From Fervidobacterium gondwanense DSM 13020 (lineage in GTDB: Bacteria > Thermotogota > Thermotogae > Thermotogales > Fervidobacteriaceae), in the NCBI RefSeq assembly GCF_900143265.1, contig NZ_FRDJ01000005.1, forward strand, positions 1-64,000: a DNA stretch of 64,000 nt, given 5' to 3'. The notes below the pieces were generated by a model. The model had not been told where the DNA came from and did no database searches. It saw only the letters and a list, made by a program, of their open reading frames with translations. Positions 28,042 to 54,244 of this stretch are shown here, piece by piece (within the stretch, counting starts at the first letter, position 1; every line of letters starts with the position of its first letter). Position numbers and translations under genes: made by a program.

Positions 28042-28803
28042 ATGATTAGGTTTCTCGGCGATTTCTCTATAGGTAATTGCAACGAGCTGGAATTATCTAA
28101 GAACGAATTGATAGCTCTTGCCTATTGTGCGGTCAAAGAGAGATTTTACATAAATGAGTTATATGATATTTTAGAAGAAAAAGGACGTTATGAAATTGCA
28201 TACGTAAGGAAGATCTTAAAAAATCTAAGAGCGAAGGTGTGTGATAATGTTGATATAAACGTATCTGAAGGAAGAATTAGCTCAGAATTTAGAGACAGCT
28301 GTGATATAAAAGTTTTGCCTAAGGAAGTTGAGAAGGTGGAAGAGAAAATGAAACACAGTGCTTTGGAAGACACGGATATTGAGTCTTTATTGGCACTTTA
28401 TCGTGGCCACTTTCTTCCATTCATAGAAAACCTTTGGGTCGAGAGTTATAGAGACATGCTTAAATCTATAGTCTTCTCCCTATTTTCAAAATTGTACTTG
28501 TCAAAGACTCTTTCTTCAGCATCAAAGTTAAAAATGTTAAGAATTTTTCCCGAATTGCAGATGAGCGTTATAGACTTGAGCACCTTGGAAAGCCTCTCTG
28601 GTTATGTTCGTGTCAACATTGGTGATTATGTCTTTGGAGTTAATGAAGAATTGGGGATTTTGAGAATTACGAACATACCAACGGATATGCTTTTAAATCT
28701 AATTAAGGGTTGCAGTGAAGTTTCGTTTGTTGGCGATAATGAAGTGGTATTAGTTGTGAATTCCGAAACTATACACGCTTTGATCAAGATGAAGAAAGAA
28801 TGA
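28042..28803 (+). CDS. SARP/BTAD-like transcriptional regulator (divergent)
   Basis: 253-aa protein. The N-terminus reads like an OmpR/SARP winged helix: MIRFLGDFSIGN, then a recognition-type segment YVRKILKNLRAKV, then a beta wing. A helical BTAD-like region follows (LLALYRGHFLPFIENLW, about residues 114-131). The last 60 residues form a further alpha/beta segment that I do not recognise. The gene is first in a five-gene operon and is followed by a paralogous regulator. The assignment rests on pattern, not on a search. The RBS is GGGAGG. Confidence 0.6.
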   Translation: MIRFLGDFSIGNCNELELSKNELIALAYCAVKERFYINELYDILEEKGRYEIAYVRKILKNLRAKVCDNVDINVSEGRISSEFRDSCDIKVLPKEVEKVEEKMKHSALEDTDIESLLALYRGHFLPFIENLWVESYRDMLKSIVFSLFSKLYLSKTLSSASKLKMLRIFPELQMSVIDLSTLESLSGYVRVNIGDYVFGVNEELGILRITNIPTDMLLNLIKGCSEVSFVGDNEVVLVVNSETIHALIKMKKE

Positions 28804-28840
28804 TTGAACCGTCAACCCTGGTTCAGGGGTGGTTAAGGTG

Positions 28841-29634
28841 ATGTACATCAAGTTTTTCGGAGATTGGAAGGTGTATTCTAATGGAAAGTTGATTAAAAAA
28901 TTCAAATCCCAGAAATCATTGAAGATCCTATTTTACCTTGTACTATCTGGAAGAACGAGAGTATCTGAGGATGAACTTTTCAAAACTTTCTGGATTAGAT
29001 ATAACAAAGATTATGCCAAGAAGAACCTAAATACTCTCCTGTGTTATTTGAGAACAGACTTAAAATACCTACCGATTATCTAAGCGGCGAAAGGGATTTT
29101 GTGCACATTGCGCAGAGTCATTTTCAAAGTGACTACAAAGAGTTCCTTGAAGCGGTAGAATCGGGTGATTTGAAGAGAGCAGAAAGCATGTACACCGGTC
29201 CTCTTTTAGATGGTATCAACGATGATTGGGTGAAAAAATATAGACTAACCTGCCAGAAGATGTTTGAAGAATTAAACTATCCTGCCTCTCAAAAGAACCT
29301 CGATAAAGAAAATAATCCAATCACAAAATTAAAAGCCATCCTTGAACAGCAGAAATTGACAAGAGAAAAGCATTTCATACCATTACTTCTCAGAAAAGAC
29401 GAAGTAATATTTGGATTTTCGGTCAGAAAAGGCGACATTTTGGTTGATTTTGAAGACATTGTTATCATTGTTTTAGAAAAAGGGACAAAGTCGTATGAAA
29501 AAACTATCAAAGGTTTCTTAAAAAGGGCAGGGCTGACTGAACAAGCTGTAAAGATTCTTGATGAAAATGGTGTTTTAGAAATAATAAAAATCAGGAATAG
29601 TGATTCTTATGAAAAAAAGGATTTTTCAAATTAA
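28841..29634 (+). pseudogene. Second SARP/BTAD-like regulator, interrupted by a frameshift
   Basis: A paralogue of the preceding gene. The first part (28841-29083) gives MYIKFFGDWKVYSNGK and a winged helix ending LNTLLCYLRTDLK, then runs into a stop. The continuation lies in the -1 frame (to 29634) with DYLSGERDFVHIAQ and a BTAD region (AESMYTGPLLDGINDDWVKK). Adding one A to AAAA at 29062-29065 joins them as RTDLKIPTDYLSGER, giving 264 aa, close to the 253 aa of the neighbour. No good slippery heptamer is present. It is either a real break or a sequencing error. Confidence 0.65.
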
Positions 29635-29670
29635 CGTCCATTAGCACGAAAGGAACGGAGGGATTTGCGT

Positions 29671-31038
29671 ATGAATTTGAGAGTTTTCATGATTTTGGTA
29701 TTTACGTGTTTTGTAACTCTTCTCTTCGCCTTAGAAATATCACCTAACCTCATATATCAAATTGAGAGTGCGAAATATCAATTCTCTTACGAACTCTACG
29801 TAAAGAACGATATACCTTACGAAAGTAAAGTTACTGTCGAGGTAATAGATTTCATAACTGATGGTCGAAGCTATTCGTTCGACGAACCGGACTATAAATA
29901 CAGTTTGAGAAATCACGTGTCGGTAAACGAAAAAGAGATCATTTTAGCTGTGAACGAACAAAAGCCTGTAAAGTTGGAATTCAACGTGCCTCAGAATTTT
30001 CCGGGTGCGACTGGTGTCTTCGCATTGCGGATTTCTCAGGAAAGTACCACTGGCGGTAAGGTACAGATACGCCTAAATTATATAGTACCGTTCTTTATAA
30101 GGTTCACGGTTGTTCCGATATTTCAATCAGTTAAAATTAAGGATATTTCAGTGAGGGATCTCTCTTTAGAGCCAGACGATGAATATGGAAATTATGGTTC
30201 ATTGATTACACTTGAAATTGAGAATAATGGAAATATCGGATTAATACCAAAAGGTTCTATCTTAGTTTCAGCAAGAGAACTAAAAACAACGATAGCTGAG
30301 GTTCCTATTGATTCATTTGATCTTGTTGTCTTTCCTGAGAAAAGAACTTACTACACATTTTACATACCGTGCACGCTACCGTCTGGAACGTTAGATATCA
30401 ACCTCTCTGGAAAATCATATGGTCTTGATTTTAGCACAAGTGCTTCAAAGAAAATCGAGAATAAAAACAACCTGATGATAGTCAAGACAGAACCTCAACT
30501 TGTTATTTTTAACGATAAGAACAAAAACACAGTATACAGTTTAACAATAAGCAACCTTTCTTTTATCAAAGATTCGATCATACCAATTGTCAATTCAGAT
30601 GAACTCTCGTTTATCCCCAAAAAGTCCATAATCTATCCTTACAGGACCACTTCATTCAATGTTAGAACATCAACAAAAGACTTTGGTTTCTCAGGAGACA
30701 GGATATATGAAATAAAATTCCAAGCAGAATCGTCAACAACTTTGAGGAATGTTCAACCTGCGTACGTAGTATTGCGAGGCAAGACTATAAATGCCTTGTT
30801 AGAAGGTCATTTAGAATCATCCCAGTTTGGTTCAAGTTTGGTAGTAAGCAACGAAGGGAATTGCGTTGTACAGTTCGATGTTATGTACGGCAACCAGAAA
30901 TTGAACAGCGAATCTTTGGTTATCTTCCCCGGGCAGACACTCACCATCGATTTTGGGACAGTTATTAACAAGAACCAACTACAAGTGAAGTACGGACCTT
31001 ATGGAGAAAACACAACTAACTCGCTCGAAGACTTTTGA
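29671..31038 (+). CDS. Exported Ig-like (chaperone-like) protein of the secretin locus
   Basis: 455-aa secreted protein with a signal peptide (about residues 1-20, ending LLFALE). The remainder is all-beta. The first about 150 residues resemble a periplasmic pilus-chaperone or Ig-like domain (a strand-rich region, then VKLEFNVPQNFPGATGVFALRI). Further beta domains carry phrases like SLITLEIENNGNIG that fit NEW3/CARDB-type Ig repeats. I see no catalytic motif or Cys pairs. It lies in a tight operon with secretin-like genes, so a role in export or assembly outside the inner membrane is likely. The RBS GGAGGG precedes the ATG. Confidence 0.6.
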   Translation: MNLRVFMILVFTCFVTLLFALEISPNLIYQIESAKYQFSYELYVKNDIPYESKVTVEVIDFITDGRSYSFDEPDYKYSLRNHVSVNEKEIILAVNEQKPVKLEFNVPQNFPGATGVFALRISQESTTGGKVQIRLNYIVPFFIRFTVVPIFQSVKIKDISVRDLSLEPDDEYGNYGSLITLEIENNGNIGLIPKGSILVSARELKTTIAEVPIDSFDLVVFPEKRTYYTFYIPCTLPSGTLDINLSGKSYGLDFSTSASKKIENKNNLMIVKTEPQLVIFNDKNKNTVYSLTISNLSFIKDSIIPIVNSDELSFIPKKSIIYPYRTTSFNVRTSTKDFGFSGDRIYEIKFQAESSTTLRNVQPAYVVLRGKTINALLEGHLESSQFGSSLVVSNEGNCVVQFDVMYGNQKLNSESLVIFPGQTLTIDFGTVINKNQLQVKYGPYGENTTNSLEDF

Positions 31039-31071: not shown

Positions 31072-32231
31072 GTGAAGAGAATTTCACCGGTTCTTTTAAT
31101 TATTTTGATTATGATATACTCTCTACCTTTTTTGTTTGCGTTGGAAGTATCGTTTTTCAACACTAATATAAAAGAGGCTTTGAATATTCTTTCACTTGAT
31201 ACTGGTGCTGTTATCATTTACGAACCAAATATCAGTGGTGCAGTTACGATACAAGTAGATGCTGATTTTGAAAGAGTCCTCGATTTGATTTTAATGCCTT
31301 ACAATTACTACTGGACTAAGCTCGAAAACGTATACTTTGTCGGCATCTCGGATGTAAACGCATCTTCTTTTTTAAATACTGCTAAATTCTATCAGATACC
31401 GCTTAGGTTTTGCTCTGCTGAGAAGATCATTGCTGTCATGCCGAAGGCTCTTGAAAGTTTCGTTTTGAAACCCTTTGAGCAGAATAATCTTTTAGTGTTT
31501 GCACCACCGCCGATAGCTTCGAAGATTGCAAGCTTTGTTTCAGATATCGACAAGCCGAAACAAGCTTACGAAGTTTATGTGAAGATTACGGATATAAGCG
31601 AGGCCTTTCTCTTTAACTTCCGGCTCGATTTCTCGTCCTCACGCCAGTCAATCTTTGCGCCGAATTTGTTGCAAATTCCAATTTCTGATACAAACCTAAA
31701 TATTCTTCTTAACAACAAGGAAGACTCGGAAGATTTTAAATCATATACGAAGGTAAAGTCCAAGCTTTAAGTGGTTATCAAACAAAGATAACGGCTCAGA
31801 GAAGTATTACGATTTCAAAATTCGGAGATGGTAAATTAACAAGCGGGCAGAATATAACAACAATGGAGATGACCATAACCCCAAGATTTTTGTACAACAG
31901 CTGTGTAATGGAAATCTCTTTGAAGTTAGATGGAATTCCAGATGCCAACGAGTTGAACTTTGAAACAAGGGGTGCGATACTTCAGTCAACAGTTAACTTG
32001 GAATACGGGAAGGTTTACTTGGTTGGATCGTTTAGTTATGACAAGAGTGTGCAAAAGGAAGGTGGAATCGCATTTCTTAAAGATTTGCCGATAATAGGTA
32101 GTCTTTTCAAAAGCTATTACATCGAATCAGAGAAAAGATATGTTATGTTCCTTGTAATCGTCGCAAGAAGTATAGATTTGTTGTCGAATATGAACGAATA
32201 TGTTCAAGAATCAGGAGTTGATGGAAAATGA
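31072..32231 (+). pseudogene. Secretin-family protein, interrupted by a frameshift
   Basis: The signal peptide (MKRISPVLLIILIMIYSLPFLFA) is followed by an N0/STN-like domain (about 23-85), an N1-like domain (95-165) and a short secretin core. The C-terminal part has the secretin signature GIAFLKDLPIIGSLFK. The reading frame breaks after 31738: the upstream frame ends at 31770, while the downstream frame resumes as IYEGKVQALSGYQTK. One extra A in AAA at 31738-31740 restores DFKIIYEGKV, giving 386 aa, short for a secretin. GTG start with GGAGGG; its stop overlaps the next ATG (ATGA). Confidence 0.7.
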
Positions 32232-33724
32232 GAAGAAGTCTATACAGTTTGCTCTTTTTTCTTATCTCTTCGTTTTTATTTTCCGTTGGCATTTCGGTCA
32301 CTCTTGATTTTACAAATACGCCTCTTTCTGAGATTCTCGATTTCATATCTTCAGAAACCAGTTCCGTCATAGTTTACCCTTTAGAACTCTCTAAACTTAA
32401 GATTACTATCAACTTGAAAAACGTTAATATAGAGACTGCGCTGAAAATGTTGCTTCTAAATCTCGGCTTTGATTTTGAGAAAATCGATTCAGAAACTTAT
32501 GTCGTTTTTTCGCAGACACGGTATTACCCAAGATATATCACAAACTACGAGCCAAAATACCTGGACCCGTTTACTATCAAAAGTGTTTTGGACACTTTAG
32601 ACATTGAGAATTATGTTTTTGAAAATCGAAATGTGTTTTACTCGGCGAGCAATCAGAAGGCAGATGAATTGCTTTCTATCATTTCACAGCTCGATGTAAG
32701 GAAGGATTCCAAAGATTCTTCGATTCTTTTGGTAAAGCTGTTGTCGATTTCAAAAAGCGAGTTCACGATTTCAGCAAACAAAAATGCTAACCAAAGTATC
32801 GACAAATCTAATATAGCATACATTTTGCCAAGAATCGTTGAACGAGTGAGCGAATATTCAAGAGAATATTGCTACATATCTATCCCGATCTACAAAGCTC
32901 AAGTTGAAGAGTCAACCTTGCTTTTGTCAGAAACCATCGCTGCAACAATGACAATAGAAGGTGGTTTTGGACAAGTTACTGTACGGTTGATCAACAAAGA
33001 TGGTACCGAGTTTATTAAGTTCGGAACAAAAGAAGCTGAGGGGACACTACCGCTGAACAGTATACCGATTTTGAAGAGTGCAGAGGAAAAGATTAAATTC
33101 GGAGAAGGTCAGGGCACAGGATACTCTATATTGGAGTCTGGACAATATCTGATATACTTGGAATTCTACAAATTGGAAATTGAAAATACTGATGAAGTAA
33201 GAAATTATACGTATGTAGAGAAGAAAGATAACTACAATCTAACAAAACTAAAAAGCGATATTGAACTAACATACAGCAGTTCATCGACCATACTGTCTAT
33301 TCAGAATGAAAGGAACAAAGCATCGGTTGTTGTAAGCAGTCAAGACTTTTTACCTTTGTATGCAGAGATACTAACAAGAATAGTGGATAATACTTTCATA
33401 GGAATTGGGTTTGAGGTATCAAGTTCAAAGATCTACATTTTGGTACACGACAAGATTACTCTTCCTCTTTTTGAGATTTATCCAAAAATAGGATATTCGA
33501 TAAATGATAATTCATTTGCAATCACGGCAGAAATAGACTTTGTTATCTCTTTTGGCGATTTCTCACTCGTTCCATTGATAAAATTCGGAAACCAAGGGAA
33601 TGCATTTTATGAAACCACGGGATATGGAGTGACAGCAAGATACAGAGGGAAAGATTATGAATTCAGATTAGGAACTTTATGGTCAGGTCAGTTTTTTGCA
33701 GTTACTGGAGGAATTTCTTGGTGA
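32228..33724 (+). CDS. Secretin N-domain protein with beta-rich C-terminus
   Basis: 498-aa exported protein, paralogous to the N-terminal half of its upstream neighbour. It has a signal peptide (1-19), an STN/N0 domain (LDFTNTPLSEILDFIS to VVFSQT, about 23-95) and an N1-like domain (100-160). It lacks a clear secretin pore signature. Its last 100 residues alternate polar and hydrophobic residues and end in Trp, like an outer-membrane beta-barrel strand. It starts by ATGA overlap with the secretin gene. It could be a partner or modified version of the pore. Confidence 0.6.
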   Translation: MRRSLYSLLFFLISSFLFSVGISVTLDFTNTPLSEILDFISSETSSVIVYPLELSKLKITINLKNVNIETALKMLLLNLGFDFEKIDSETYVVFSQTRYYPRYITNYEPKYLDPFTIKSVLDTLDIENYVFENRNVFYSASNQKADELLSIISQLDVRKDSKDSSILLVKLLSISKSEFTISANKNANQSIDKSNIAYILPRIVERVSEYSREYCYISIPIYKAQVEESTLLLSETIAATMTIEGGFGQVTVRLINKDGTEFIKFGTKEAEGTLPLNSIPILKSAEEKIKFGEGQGTGYSILESGQYLIYLEFYKLEIENTDEVRNYTYVEKKDNYNLTKLKSDIELTYSSSSTILSIQNERNKASVVVSSQDFLPLYAEILTRIVDNTFIGIGFEVSSSKIYILVHDKITLPLFEIYPKIGYSINDNSFAITAEIDFVISFGDFSLVPLIKFGNQGNAFYETTGYGVTARYRGKDYEFRLGTLWSGQFFAVTGGISW

Positions 33725-33755: not shown

Positions 33756-34220
33756 TCAGAACGGAAAAAAAGTAAATGAAAGGACCACTGGAGATTCTTC
33801 TTTTTCAAGTTCTTCCAAGTTTATGATGAAGAAAACAGAAGTCATTCTAAACTGTTTTCTCGGATTGAATTCAGTAGCTTGGCTCAAAGATATGACTTTA
33901 TTACCTAACCTAATTGTTATAGGTATTCTCATTTCTTGAGCAACACCGTCAGTGGATAAAACGTCCACAGAAAATTTGAATTTCTTACTTGATTCTAATG
34001 TGATGCTTCCCACAACCGTTTTTAAATCCATTTGCTCGGTTAGAATCTGCTGACTTTCATCGTAGTCCATCGAGATTTTTATTGCCGGCTTTACAGTGAA
34101 AGTAAGTACCTGACTCCAGACAGCTCCGCTTGGTCCAAATATTATATGAACTGGACCATTAGAAAACAACGAAAGTGGTATTAAAACAACAGAAAGCACC
34201 AAAAACAATCTTTTTGTCAA
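33756..34220 (-). CDS. Small exported beta-protein, paralogue 3 of the FLPF family
   Basis: 154-aa protein with a signal peptide (MTKRLFLVLSVVLIPLSLFS). The mature part shares with its two neighbours the pattern WSQ-x-L-x-F-x-V, a YDES/YDVS stretch, SVG-type and FK motifs in the middle, and a C-terminal strand LSFTFFPF. It has a TTG start with GGAGGT upstream. The all-beta, Cys-poor composition with a shared aromatic C-terminal strand suggests a surface or pilus-type subunit. I do not recognise a named family. It converges on the secretin-like operon (31-base gap). Confidence 0.6.
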   Translation of the reverse strand: MTKRLFLVLSVVLIPLSLFSNGPVHIIFGPSGAVWSQVLTFTVKPAIKISMDYDESQQILTEQMDLKTVVGSITLESSKKFKFSVDVLSTDGVAQEMRIPITIRLGNKVISLSQATEFNPRKQFRMTSVFFIINLEELEKEESPVVLSFTFFPF

Positions 34221-34254
34221 AAAATCAACCTCCGTTATACCAGGGTGCTAAAAA

Positions 34255-34689
34255 TCAAAACGGCAAAAATACAAACGTTAAAGACACTTGGAAGTCTCCA
34301 GCTGCTTCATCTAAATCGAAACGCAGAGATAGAATTCCTCTTATGAAGTTATTTATTTTTGTTGGTTTATCTTGAGACATTGATATTTTGGTGTTGCCTA
34401 TGTTAACACTTTTAACGACCACATCTTGAGAATCCAATACGACAGGTTCAACATACATCTTAAATCTGCTCACCGAAGCATAAATATAAATTTCTCCAAC
34501 TGACGCTGTTTTGGTGTATTCACTTACTACAAAAGTCTGGCTCTCATCGTAATACCAAGTAATTGTTATTATCTGCTCAGCAAAAGTCCGCTCAGCGCAG
34601 AATAGATAAGATATGATCAAAAGCAAAATCGCTAATACCTTGAACCGCTCAATGCTGTCACCTTTTTCGAACTGTCGTTTTATTATCAT
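34255..34689 (-). CDS. Small exported beta-protein, paralogue 2 of the FLPF family
   Basis: 144-aa protein. I start it at the ATG (34689) preceded by AAGGTGATC, giving a positively charged N-terminus, a membrane segment (VLAILLLIISYLF) and a likely cleavage after TFA. The mature part (about 105 residues) keeps the YDES, TASVG, FK and NFIRGILSLRF blocks of paralogue 1 and ends LTFVFLPF. It lacks the WSQ region at the mature N-terminus. The ORF could begin upstream at 34776, but that start has no RBS and would overlap the terminator of the preceding gene. Confidence 0.6.
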   Translation of the reverse strand: MIIKRQFEKGDSIERFKVLAILLLIISYLFCAERTFAEQIITITWYYDESQTFVVSEYTKTASVGEIYIYASVSRFKMYVEPVVLDSQDVVVKSVNIGNTKISMSQDKPTKINNFIRGILSLRFDLDEAAGDFQVSLTFVFLPF

Positions 34690-34760
34690 TCTCTTGATCA
34701 CCTTCTTATTACTACCATCTTCTCGCTCTAAAATTATACCACTTCCTACGAAACTGTTTA

Positions 34761-34788
34761 AATTAAAAGAGGGCACGAAGCCCTCTTC
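34761..34788 (-). terminator. Terminator between paralogues 1 and 2
   Basis: GAGGGC (34769-34774) pairs with GCCCTC (34780-34785) around a 5-base loop; on the minus strand it is followed by TTTTAATTT. It would let the first gene (34819-35268) be expressed more strongly than the two downstream paralogues. Confidence 0.75.
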
Positions 34789-34818
34789 TTTCAGTTTTTA
34801 TTAAAATCATATCCTTAA

Positions 34819-35268
34819 TCAAAACGGCAAGAAGGTAAAATCGAGTTTTACGTCAAAGTCATCTTCAATGTCTGTATAACCTGTAAACGTTACACTTAAT
34901 ACACCGGCAAGAGACTTTGTAGGAACTTCTGTTGGACTATTAGCATTGTCTGAAAGAACTTGCGTGCCAACTTGGACTGCAGAAATTCCTAAGCCAGTAG
35001 GAAGTTGGTTGCCTATAGCGTAGTAAAGTTTGAATTTCTTATTAGACCAGAATTGAATATCTCCAACACTTGCAGTTCCGGTATCATAATCGACTAAGAA
35101 TGTTGATGACACATCGTATTCCCAAGTAACAACGATTTTGTGTTTTACTGAAAACTTGAGCGTCTGTGACCACTGTCCACTTGAACTCATTTGAATGGTG
35201 GTGCTTCCAGCTGCTACGAACTCCGTAAAGACAAGAACTATCAAGAGAACGATTAATAACTTCTTCAT
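34819..35268 (-). CDS. Small exported beta-protein, paralogue 1 of the FLPF family
   Basis: 149-aa protein with a signal peptide (MKKLLIVLLIVLVFTEFVAAG). The mature part is all beta, with GQWSQTLKFSVKHK at its start, TASVGDIQFWSNKKFKLYY in the middle and LDFTFLPF at the C-terminus. It has the best expression signals of the three paralogues: a consensus-like promoter, an AAAGGAGGGATGAG ribosome site, and a terminator directly after the gene. These point to an abundant exported protein, perhaps the main subunit of a surface layer or fibre. No database family is assigned. Confidence 0.65.
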   Translation of the reverse strand: MKKLLIVLLIVLVFTEFVAAGSTTIQMSSSGQWSQTLKFSVKHKIVVTWEYDVSSTFLVDYDTGTASVGDIQFWSNKKFKLYYAIGNQLPTGLGISAVQVGTQVLSDNANSPTEVPTKSLAGVLSVTFTGYTDIEDDFDVKLDFTFLPF

Positions 35269-50811: not shown

Positions 50812-52113
50812 ATGGCGTTGAACATGTTCTGTTATCAGTGTTCACAAGCGATGAACGGCGAAGCATGTACTATCACAGGTGTGTGCGGCAAAGATCCTGT
50901 TGTTTCAAGATTGCAAGATAACTTGGAGTACATACTCAAAGGTATATCTGCGTATTACTACCATGCAAGAGAACTCGGTTACAAAGATGAGGAAATTGCA
51001 GCTTTCCTCAGTGAAGGGCTCTATTCAACCCTCACAAACGTGAATTTCGATGCTCAGGAGTTTGTGAATTTGGCTCTCAGAGCTGGTATGATGAACTTCA
51101 AAGTCATGCAACTACTCAAGAAGGCACATATTGAAACGTACGGTGAGCCGATGCCGACAGAAGTGGAAACGGGTACAAAAGAAGGACACGCGATAATCGT
51201 CACTGGACATAATCTCAAAGCTCTTGAAGAGCTCCTTAAACAAGTTGAAGGCACGGATGTGTACGTCTACACGCACTCTGAAATGCTCCCAGCACACGGA
51301 TATCCCGGATTGAGAAAATACAAGAACTTAGCTGGAAACCTCGGAGGCGCTTGGTTTGATCAAAGGGACCTCTTTGACAAAATTCCCGCAGCGATACTCG
51401 GAACGAGTAACTGCGTACTGTTGCCAAAAGAATCCTATAGAGACAGAATGTTCACAACATCGATTGCAAGGCTTCCCGGCGTAAAGCACATTGAAGGTTA
51501 CGACTATTCGGAAGTTATAGCGAAGGCAAAGTCATTGCCAAAGCTCCCAGAACAACCCGGAAAGTACAAGCTCACAACAGGATATTCTGCAAGCGTTGTT
51601 AAATCTTTAGCGGGAAAGATTAAAGAACTTGTTGAAGCTGGAAAGATAAAACACTTCTTTGTTGTTGGCGGATGCGATACCCCAACAAGACGCGGTGCAT
51701 ACTACAGAGAATTCGTCGAAAAACTTCCAAAGGAAACAGTAGTTATAACACTTGCGTGTGGTAAGTTCAGAATCAACGACTTACAACTCGGCGATATTGA
51801 AGGTATTCCAAGACTCATCGACGTTGGTCAATGCAACGATACAATCGTAGCACTCGAAATAGCCATGGCGCTCTCTGAAACGTTCGGTGTTCCTGTCACA
51901 GAGCTCCCGCTATCACTCGTGCTCACATGGATGGAACAGAAAGCTGTTGCAATACTGTGGACACTACTTGCACTTGGACTCAAAGGAATCTACATAGGTC
52001 CTGTATTGCCAGCTTGGGTCAATAAAGAAATTCTTGAAGTGCTCGTTAAGAACTACGATTTGAAACTCATAGGGCAACCGGAAGAAGATATAAAGGCGAT
52101 TTTAAAGGTATAA
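50812..52113 (+). CDS. hcp: Hydroxylamine reductase / hybrid-cluster protein (short form)
   Basis: 433-aa hybrid-cluster protein. It reduces hydroxylamine or NO-derived species and protects against nitrosative stress. The N-terminal cluster motif is [22 protein letters not shown] (Cys at 3, 6, 15 and 21 of this stretch). Hybrid-cluster ligands appear in [19 protein letters not shown] and GQCNDT. Typical class I/II Hcp has about 550 aa; the shorter length fits the thermophile/archaeal class. The RBS AGGAGGTG precedes the ATG. Confidence 0.92.
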
Positions 52114-52141
52114 GAAACCTTAAATTCGAACCGATTTTGAA

Positions 52142-52180
52142 AAATAAAAAAGCGCAGGGCTGAAATGCCCTGCGTTATTT
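52142..52180. terminator. Bidirectional terminator between hcp and the metallophosphoesterase gene
   Basis: CGCAGGGC (52153-52160) pairs with GCCCTGCG (52167-52174) around a 6-base loop, with AAAATAAAAAA on the left and TTATTT on the right. It serves both convergent genes; the leftward side is stronger. Confidence 0.88.
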
Positions 52181-52189
52181 GTAATTGAT

Positions 52190-54244
52190 TCACGTTGAAC
52201 CTATTCTTATCATCTTCACACTCCCGTCCGCAAAAGCCACAATAAATGTTCCGGGATTTGAAGTTGGTACAACATGCGTCACATAAGAGGGTCCTGCAAA
52301 GTACTTTGAGAAACTTCCCGTCGTTATGTCTATTAAAGCTATCTCACCTGAGTTTGTTCCAATTATTAAATGATTATCGCTCAAAACTCTCGGCGATGAA
52401 AAACTTATCGGCGAACCTGTATTTGCTTTCCAGACCAACTTTCCGTTTTTGTCAAATTTATACACCGTTCCCCCAAGTGAAGATACAAAGATGAAATCTT
52501 TGAATTTTTCAACTGAGGAATATCCAACCGTTATGTTGCCGGCTTCCCATTTTTTAGTCTTGTCTTTTAAATTCACACCAACAACTTTGCTTCCGGTGGT
52601 TGTATAGAAGAGCCATTCGTCAATCACCGCAGGTTTACACGCACCCGCTGTGTAGTATCCGCTTCCCGTGTCTATTCTATCTGTAAGCCTTCCATCTTCG
52701 GCTATGATATAGATACCTCCGCCCCAAGATGTTTGGTAATACACTCCATTCTCAAAATAAGCTTCTGATTGTACTAACCCCTTTAAATCGTGTTTGGCTA
52801 TTATCTGGAGATCTGACTTTCGAATCACATAACCAAACCTACCTGCACCAACGAGTAGTGTTGATTTTCCATTTGAAATTGTATAAATTGGTTCGTTAAG
52901 TTTTATCTTCTTCAAAATCTTTCCTGTCTTGGTTTCAATAACATACATATTACCATCGATATCGCCAATGAAGAACGACGTACCCGAATCACTTTCACTA
53001 ACTATATTCGCGAAAACAGGACCAATCTTCATCTTCCAAGTCTCTTTTCCATCCTGCAAAAACAAAACCGTGCCCGAGTAATCAGCTACGATTATCCCAC
53101 CATCTACTTCTATCGGCTTTGAATAAATAGCTTCCTGTAATTCATACGACCAAATGAGTTTTAACTTAGCATCAGTGTTTATGGCGCTTTTTAATGTGTA
53201 AAATCTATGAATAGTGTATCCTTTTGAGTAGCCATAGAGTGATAAAAAGTTGATGCCTAAATCGGTTGTAACGTTGCCTATTTCAAAGCTGGTTTTGGAA
53301 GTATCTTTTAGAGTTCGTTCAAGGAGAATCTTGCCGTTGGAAATCGCTTTAATTCTGTTGTATTTTGAAGGGTTGGCAGATATAGAGATTTTTCCGTCTT
53401 TGTTTTCTATTGAAGGCGATAGATTTTTTTCAATAGCTTCCGGTATTAGAGATACAGATTTTAATAATTCAAATTTATCAAATTCAAGCGAGTATCTCCA
53501 GATATGTAAAGCCGCTTCGTCCCAGCTTACAATGGTCATATACCCATCCTTTGCTGCTCCAATCATCTGAAACCATGTCCCGTTGTAATTTCCTGCATAA
53601 GAATAGCTGTGCCCATGTCCGTACAAAACCAAAGGTACTCTGTATTCTAAAAGCATATTCATCAACTTCCAGCCGTCGTCGGTATAATTCGAAGGACCAC
53701 CGAACGGATGGTGGCACAATATAATCGGAATTTTCTTTTCAACTCCTGCACTCTTGAGAGTGTTTTCAACCCACTTCAACTGCTCGTTGCCAATATGACC
53801 AACTTGCTGGAATGGGACAGATGTATCTATGCCTATAAATAATAACTTATCCACAGTCTCTTGGAAGAATTCATATGGAACATTCGACAGCCTTTTTGAT
53901 TTTCTGAATATATCGCTCCAACGCACATCATGATTTCCAAGGGTATATCTGTACTTGATACCCGATTTATCAAGCACCGAAATGGCTTTCCACAATTTCG
54001 AAAATTCCACATCGCTACCCATCTCCGTCAAGTCACCTGTCAAAAATACGTAACTCGGCTTCAGTTCAAGGAGCTTTTTAAACAGAGTATCCGTGATATT
54101 CGAGCGGTATGGATAGTGCAGATCGCTCAGTACCGCTACAAAACCCTTATGCGATAAGAATGGTATTTGAGCAAATACGGTAGATGAGAACAAATATATA
54201 AAGGTTAGAAACAGAATTAGTAATAACAAAAACTTAGCTCGCAC
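52190..54244 (-). CDS. Exported metallophosphoesterase with C-terminal beta-propeller
   Basis: 684-aa protein with a signal peptide (about 1-24) and a calcineurin-like phosphoesterase domain (about 30-260): SDLHYP, GDLTEMG, GNHDVRW, CHHPFGG and GHGHSYSY supply all metal ligands. An Ig-like middle (about 265-350) and a PQQ-type beta-propeller follow (residues 370-684, several ~40-residue blades such as GSGYYTAGACKPAV). It could act on phosphate esters or nucleotides at the surface. The start is GTG at 54244 after AGGAGGG; the longer ORF has no RBS. Confidence 0.85.
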   Translation of the reverse strand: MRAKFLLLLILFLTFIYLFSSTVFAQIPFLSHKGFVAVLSDLHYPYRSNITDTLFKKLLELKPSYVFLTGDLTEMGSDVEFSKLWKAISVLDKSGIKYRYTLGNHDVRWSDIFRKSKRLSNVPYEFFQETVDKLLFIGIDTSVPFQQVGHIGNEQLKWVENTLKSAGVEKKIPIILCHHPFGGPSNYTDDGWKLMNMLLEYRVPLVLYGHGHSYSYAGNYNGTWFQMIGAAKDGYMTIVSWDEAALHIWRYSLEFDKFELLKSVSLIPEAIEKNLSPSIENKDGKISISANPSKYNRIKAISNGKILLERTLKDTSKTSFEIGNVTTDLGINFLSLYGYSKGYTIHRFYTLKSAINTDAKLKLIWSYELQEAIYSKPIEVDGGIIVADYSGTVLFLQDGKETWKMKIGPVFANIVSESDSGTSFFIGDIDGNMYVIETKTGKILKKIKLNEPIYTISNGKSTLLVGAGRFGYVIRKSDLQIIAKHDLKGLVQSEAYFENGVYYQTSWGGGIYIIAEDGRLTDRIDTGSGYYTAGACKPAVIDEWLFYTTTGSKVVGVNLKDKTKKWEAGNITVGYSSVEKFKDFIFVSSLGGTVYKFDKNGKLVWKANTGSPISFSSPRVLSDNHLIIGTNSGEIALIDITTGSFSKYFAGPSYVTHVVPTSNPGTFIVAFADGSVKMIRIGST

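Follow-up and report, generated by a model that had tools for sequence, protein, structure and literature searches.

The stretch of DNA analysed here (the window, 64,000 nucleotides in all) comes from a heat-loving, Thermotoga-type bacterium and carries on its forward strand an operon in which one gene, coding for a secretin, an outer-membrane pore protein, is split between two reading frames. The first operon gene (28042–28803) is regulator-like and intact, and along its length 30% identical to the syntenic gene of the congener G008. It is followed by a second regulator (28829–29634) with a winged-helix-like N terminus, which is broken by a one-base loss near 29060–29068 (TTAAAAT) and is intact in both G007 and G008, and by a predicted exported chaperone-like protein (29665–31038), intact and 57% identical over 444 aa to that of G008. 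The chaperone-like protein has a weak WxLIP-type match (PF06030, E 0.024, below the cut-off), and its single-sequence structure model, with a mean pLDDT of 35, is useless. The broken secretin gene comes next, with the broken regulator 2.7 kb upstream of it and two genes before it, and its terminal TGA overlaps the ATG (32228) of a second, secretin-like protein (32228–33724) that is intact and has an STN domain. This secretin-like protein has no detected PF00263 match and is 26% identical to its G008 counterpart, as against 54–62% for the first secretin. Beyond it, on the reverse strand, lie three convergent small secreted paralogues (33756–35268). All of the operon genes and the small secreted paralogues are syntenic and intact in G008, and a search of the operon for Rfam families returned none. 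A structure model of a small secreted paralogue (pLDDT 71) has EcpA pilin as its best PDB match (E 2.4e-4, TM 0.42), followed by Dr/Afa adhesins; these proteins may be surface-fibre subunits, the likeness to the pilin/adhesin sandwich being weak.

The upstream open reading frame of the broken secretin gene (31072–31770, forward strand, 232 aa) is preceded by GGAGG at good spacing, begins with GTG at 31072 and stays open in frame 1 as far as a TAA at 31768–31770. It codes for a signal peptide followed by STN/N0 and Secretin_N/N1 domains; the match to STN (PF07660) has an E value of 2e-5, and that to Secretin_N (PF03958) is weak. The rest of the gene lies on the same strand in frame 3, which is closed by a TAA at 31737–31739 and is open from 31740 to a TGA at 32229–32231 (163 codons and the stop). 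This half contains the secretin pore domain, matching PF00263 with an E value of 1.5e-10 and 41.4 bits against a curated cut-off of 27.5. The two frames overlap only between the stops at 31737–31739 and 31768–31770, a distance that takes in ten upstream-frame sense codons, and the break falls at TTTAAA (31735–31740) within TTTTAAA, at the very start of the pore domain. The stops, the TTTTAAA tract and the AAA at 31738–31740 are all exactly where the original prediction, made from the sequence alone, had placed them. Past 31737 the upstream-frame residues no longer follow the reading frame of the orthologues, and a PF00263 search of the whole genome finds the site of the broken gene only with an internal stop. 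The downstream half has no start codon before an ATG at 31863, no clear ribosome-binding site at that ATG and no signal peptide. The STN/N domains and the pore domain are thus not joined in one exported polypeptide in the assembled window gene, as they are in the orthologues. Models specific to the PilQ, GspD and SctC types all score far below their cut-offs, including with the intact G008 orthologue.

Relatives were gathered across the Thermotogota by genome searches with either half of the gene, and 17 orthologues, including those of the congeners G004, G007 and G008, were aligned over the break. Every one of the 17 is a single open reading frame (363–413 aa) without stops across the break. 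The congener secretins are 382–383 aa long, and both window halves match one and the same open reading frame in G008, a 382-aa protein with the same domains throughout, at 54% identity to residues 5–215 and 62% identity to residues 228–373. The stretches that correspond to the two halves are separated in the orthologues by a single residue (K, E, R, D or N), and in the window by two bases. Because all 17 orthologues are open and have one residue in place of these two bases, the window gene is one base short and its break is unique, as it is among the nine species of the genus examined. Chance cannot produce this pattern. The single-base break in one secretin gene that had been proposed is therefore borne out by the single-frame orthologues together with the domain matches of the two halves. 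The original prediction had also suggested a comparison with orthologues, naming relatives naturally split at the same place as the outcome that would count against it; none of the orthologues examined has a natural split there. That the downstream half is otherwise intact and conserved suggests that the break is young.

We searched for the operon in all nine species of the genus examined, and its fate differs among them. In G004 the second regulator is independently broken, at a place other than in the window and at a run of seven A residues that forms A_AAA_AAG. This break (L184, G004:C1 about 1668062–1668810) coincides with a classic −1 slippery heptamer, and a −1 slip there would bridge it. 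What G002 retains of the chaperone gene, the first regulator gene and the small secreted genes is in fragments with multiple breaks (L188 and L190; G002:C8 about 51800–52450); no secretin was found in its genome, and its gene order suggests an inversion and the loss of both secretins. No match to the operon was found in G001, G003, G005 or G006, absence being weaker for G003 and G005, whose genomes are incomplete; all four have the genes, MeaB-like and carboxylase, that border the operon in the window. On this comparison of gene content the operon is dispensable and has been repeatedly lost in the genus. Between G004 and G007, however, the secretin has a dN/dS of 0.14, indicating purifying selection, and this counts against the favoured reading of a real, inactivating mutation in a dispensable operon. 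Selection in some congeners together with losses in others implies that the system is useful in some lineages and has been lost elsewhere.

To place the two frameshifts against the rest of the assembly, 857 kb of the source genome was compared with 1.6 Mb of G008, giving 455 kb of comparable coding sequence and about 434 loci. The only clear frameshifts outside transposases are the two in the operon, in the secretin and the second regulator. Transposase copies account for further frameshift pairs, at the edge of C17 and on contig C1; one more, on C13, is ambiguous, falling close to a C terminus at a point where G008 is itself broken. At G000:C1:133578–134821 lies a frameshifted copy of a gene, probably for a transposase, that is present several times in G008. 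In the reverse comparison G008, a complete genome, has four frameshift candidates, so the source assembly is not unusually frameshifted. Random placement puts two of 2–3 events within 2.7 kb in 1–3% of trials; the clustering is only moderately significant, and the test was devised after the pair had been seen. In-frame stops are few in the source genome. One is a TGA in the glutamate dehydrogenase gene (L075 16306–17586, G000:C14; 95% identical to G008), at an invariant glycine in the YGGGKGG motif, which is either a nonsense mutation or an assembly error and which indicates that scattered errors or mutations do exist in the assembly. Both operon breaks occur at runs of 3–4 bases, and several runs of 6–7 bases in the same operon are undisturbed. 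No second isolate of the source species was found among the genome, viral and plasmid contigs searched.

The explanation that we favour, and consider probable, is a genuine one-base loss of recent date in the secretin gene of a decaying operon. Its closest competitor, ranked second and appreciably less probable, is a sequencing or assembly error, with one base dropped from the consensus and an intact secretin in the living strain. Antonov et al. (PMC3711429) put indel-disrupted singletons of this kind into two classes, real mutation or sequencing error, and the typical signature of an error is a solitary frameshift flanked by intact homology. Both operon frameshifts are, moreover, one-base losses at short runs of T or A, and the in-frame stop in the conserved glutamate dehydrogenase may be a further error; this stop, and the fact that the clustering was noticed post hoc, count against a real mutation. 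Against an error, frameshifts elsewhere in the assembly are rare, no commoner than in G008, a complete genome, both breaks fall in a single operon, itself decaying in sister species, and they do so at the short runs while the longer ones stay intact, the secretin break site not being a long homopolymer. It is because the operon is decaying in the genus that we favour mutation over sequencing error, a choice that the original prediction could not make. The break itself, its confinement to the source genome and the losses of the operon are direct observations; that the gene has suffered a genuine and recent mutation which inactivates it is an inference.

Recoding, in which a −1 ribosomal slip would yield a full-length secretin, is very unlikely. 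The original prediction had reached the same conclusion on the grounds that slippage at TTT AAA runs into a stop, which is correct; the conclusion stands, but the argument was incomplete in that it missed an A_AAG tetramer (31755–31758, forward strand) in the overlap. This tetramer, the sole recognised −1 shifty motif there, shares the phase of the upstream frame and precedes its stop, a hairpin starts 6 bases past it, and a 120-base stretch following the break is more stably folded than shuffled sequences (z −3.9). A_AAG is the shiftiest tetramer in E. coli when aided by a strong pseudoknot, although without a stimulator tetramers scarcely exceed background in that host (PMC4066793), and the overlap contains no in-phase slippery heptamer of the form X_XXZ_ZZN. 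A_AAA or A_AAG is present in 26% of open out-of-frame ten-codon stretches of the source genome, and of 3000 A_AAR sites sampled from it 21% have an equal or better fold over 66 bases (25% at 65°C); against this background the RNA fold downstream of A_AAG looks ordinary. None of the 17 aligned orthologues shares the break, and the second-frame residues from the break to the tetramer (IIYEGK) match those of congeners (VLYEGR/K), with I-Y-E-G-K conserved upstream of the tetramer. The match implies that until recently the stretch was translated in the second frame, and we judge the motif to be fortuitous. Transcriptional slippage was rejected, as no run is long enough, and reinitiation at the downstream half was rejected for want of a start signal. 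A split into two working proteins, one with the periplasmic N domains and the other a secretin domain that stands alone, is the least credible of the readings; each half is indeed open and conserved, but no relative is split there and the second half has neither a start and ribosome-binding site of its own nor a signal peptide. Phase variation, with repeat slipping toggling the frame on and off, is scarcely more plausible. It would suit a surface system with a broken regulator in two species of the genus, but neither window break has a repeat or long homopolymer, and the G004 regulator break, which does lie at a run of seven A residues, is in a different place.

Under the favoured reading of a recent mutation, the loss of a single base from the TTTTAAA tract (31735–31740) interrupted a short secretin of about 385 aa just where its pore domain begins. 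Translation would end at 31770 and yield only the periplasmic N-terminal domains; lacking any start signal, the pore domain would go unmade, and no pore would form. Translational coupling is probably lost as well for the following gene, whose ATG overlaps the original stop codon. The broken secretin gene would have been part of a surface-export operon comprising two regulators, a chaperone-like protein, a secretin and a secretin-like protein, with small secreted proteins alongside. A more speculative view, which we consider improbable, is that a surface-fibre export system with a small secretin and a dedicated chaperone-like protein has been repeatedly silenced by single-base losses in regulator and secretin, with residual expression through ribosomal slipping, an element suggested by the G004 regulator, which breaks exactly at the A_AAA_AAG heptamer. 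If so, the breaks would represent recurrent, perhaps adaptive, silencing and not mere decay. For annotation the matter is settled: the locus holds one broken secretin gene, neither two proteins nor a recoding site. The frameshift itself is ordinary, and the decaying operon is the more interesting part; a little-studied Thermotogota secretin operon undergoing loss in several species of a single genus offers a natural set for probing its function.

We note the parallels to three known systems. The order of STN, Secretin_N and pore domains in the joined halves and in the intact orthologues is that of the secretin superfamily (PF00263, STN PF07660, Secretin_N PF03958), and the orthologue profile matches solved GspD and PilQ chains. 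The window secretin differs in being short, in reaching the cut-off of no type-specific NCBIfam model and in being split by a frameshift. With programmed −1 frameshift genes, such as dnaX and the IS3-family transposases, it shares a −1 change of frame and an A_AAG tetramer in the overlap, whereas its break is unconserved, there is no heptamer, the structure looks ordinary and second-frame residues are conserved upstream of the motif. It also resembles the indel-disrupted singletons and pseudogenes (PMC3711429), with a one-base break confirmed by BLAST and Pfam and absent in relatives, no accepted recoding motif, and a disrupted frame with intact orthologues, as in a pseudogene. It departs from these in lying in an operon with a second break, an operon that has been lost or has decayed in sister species.
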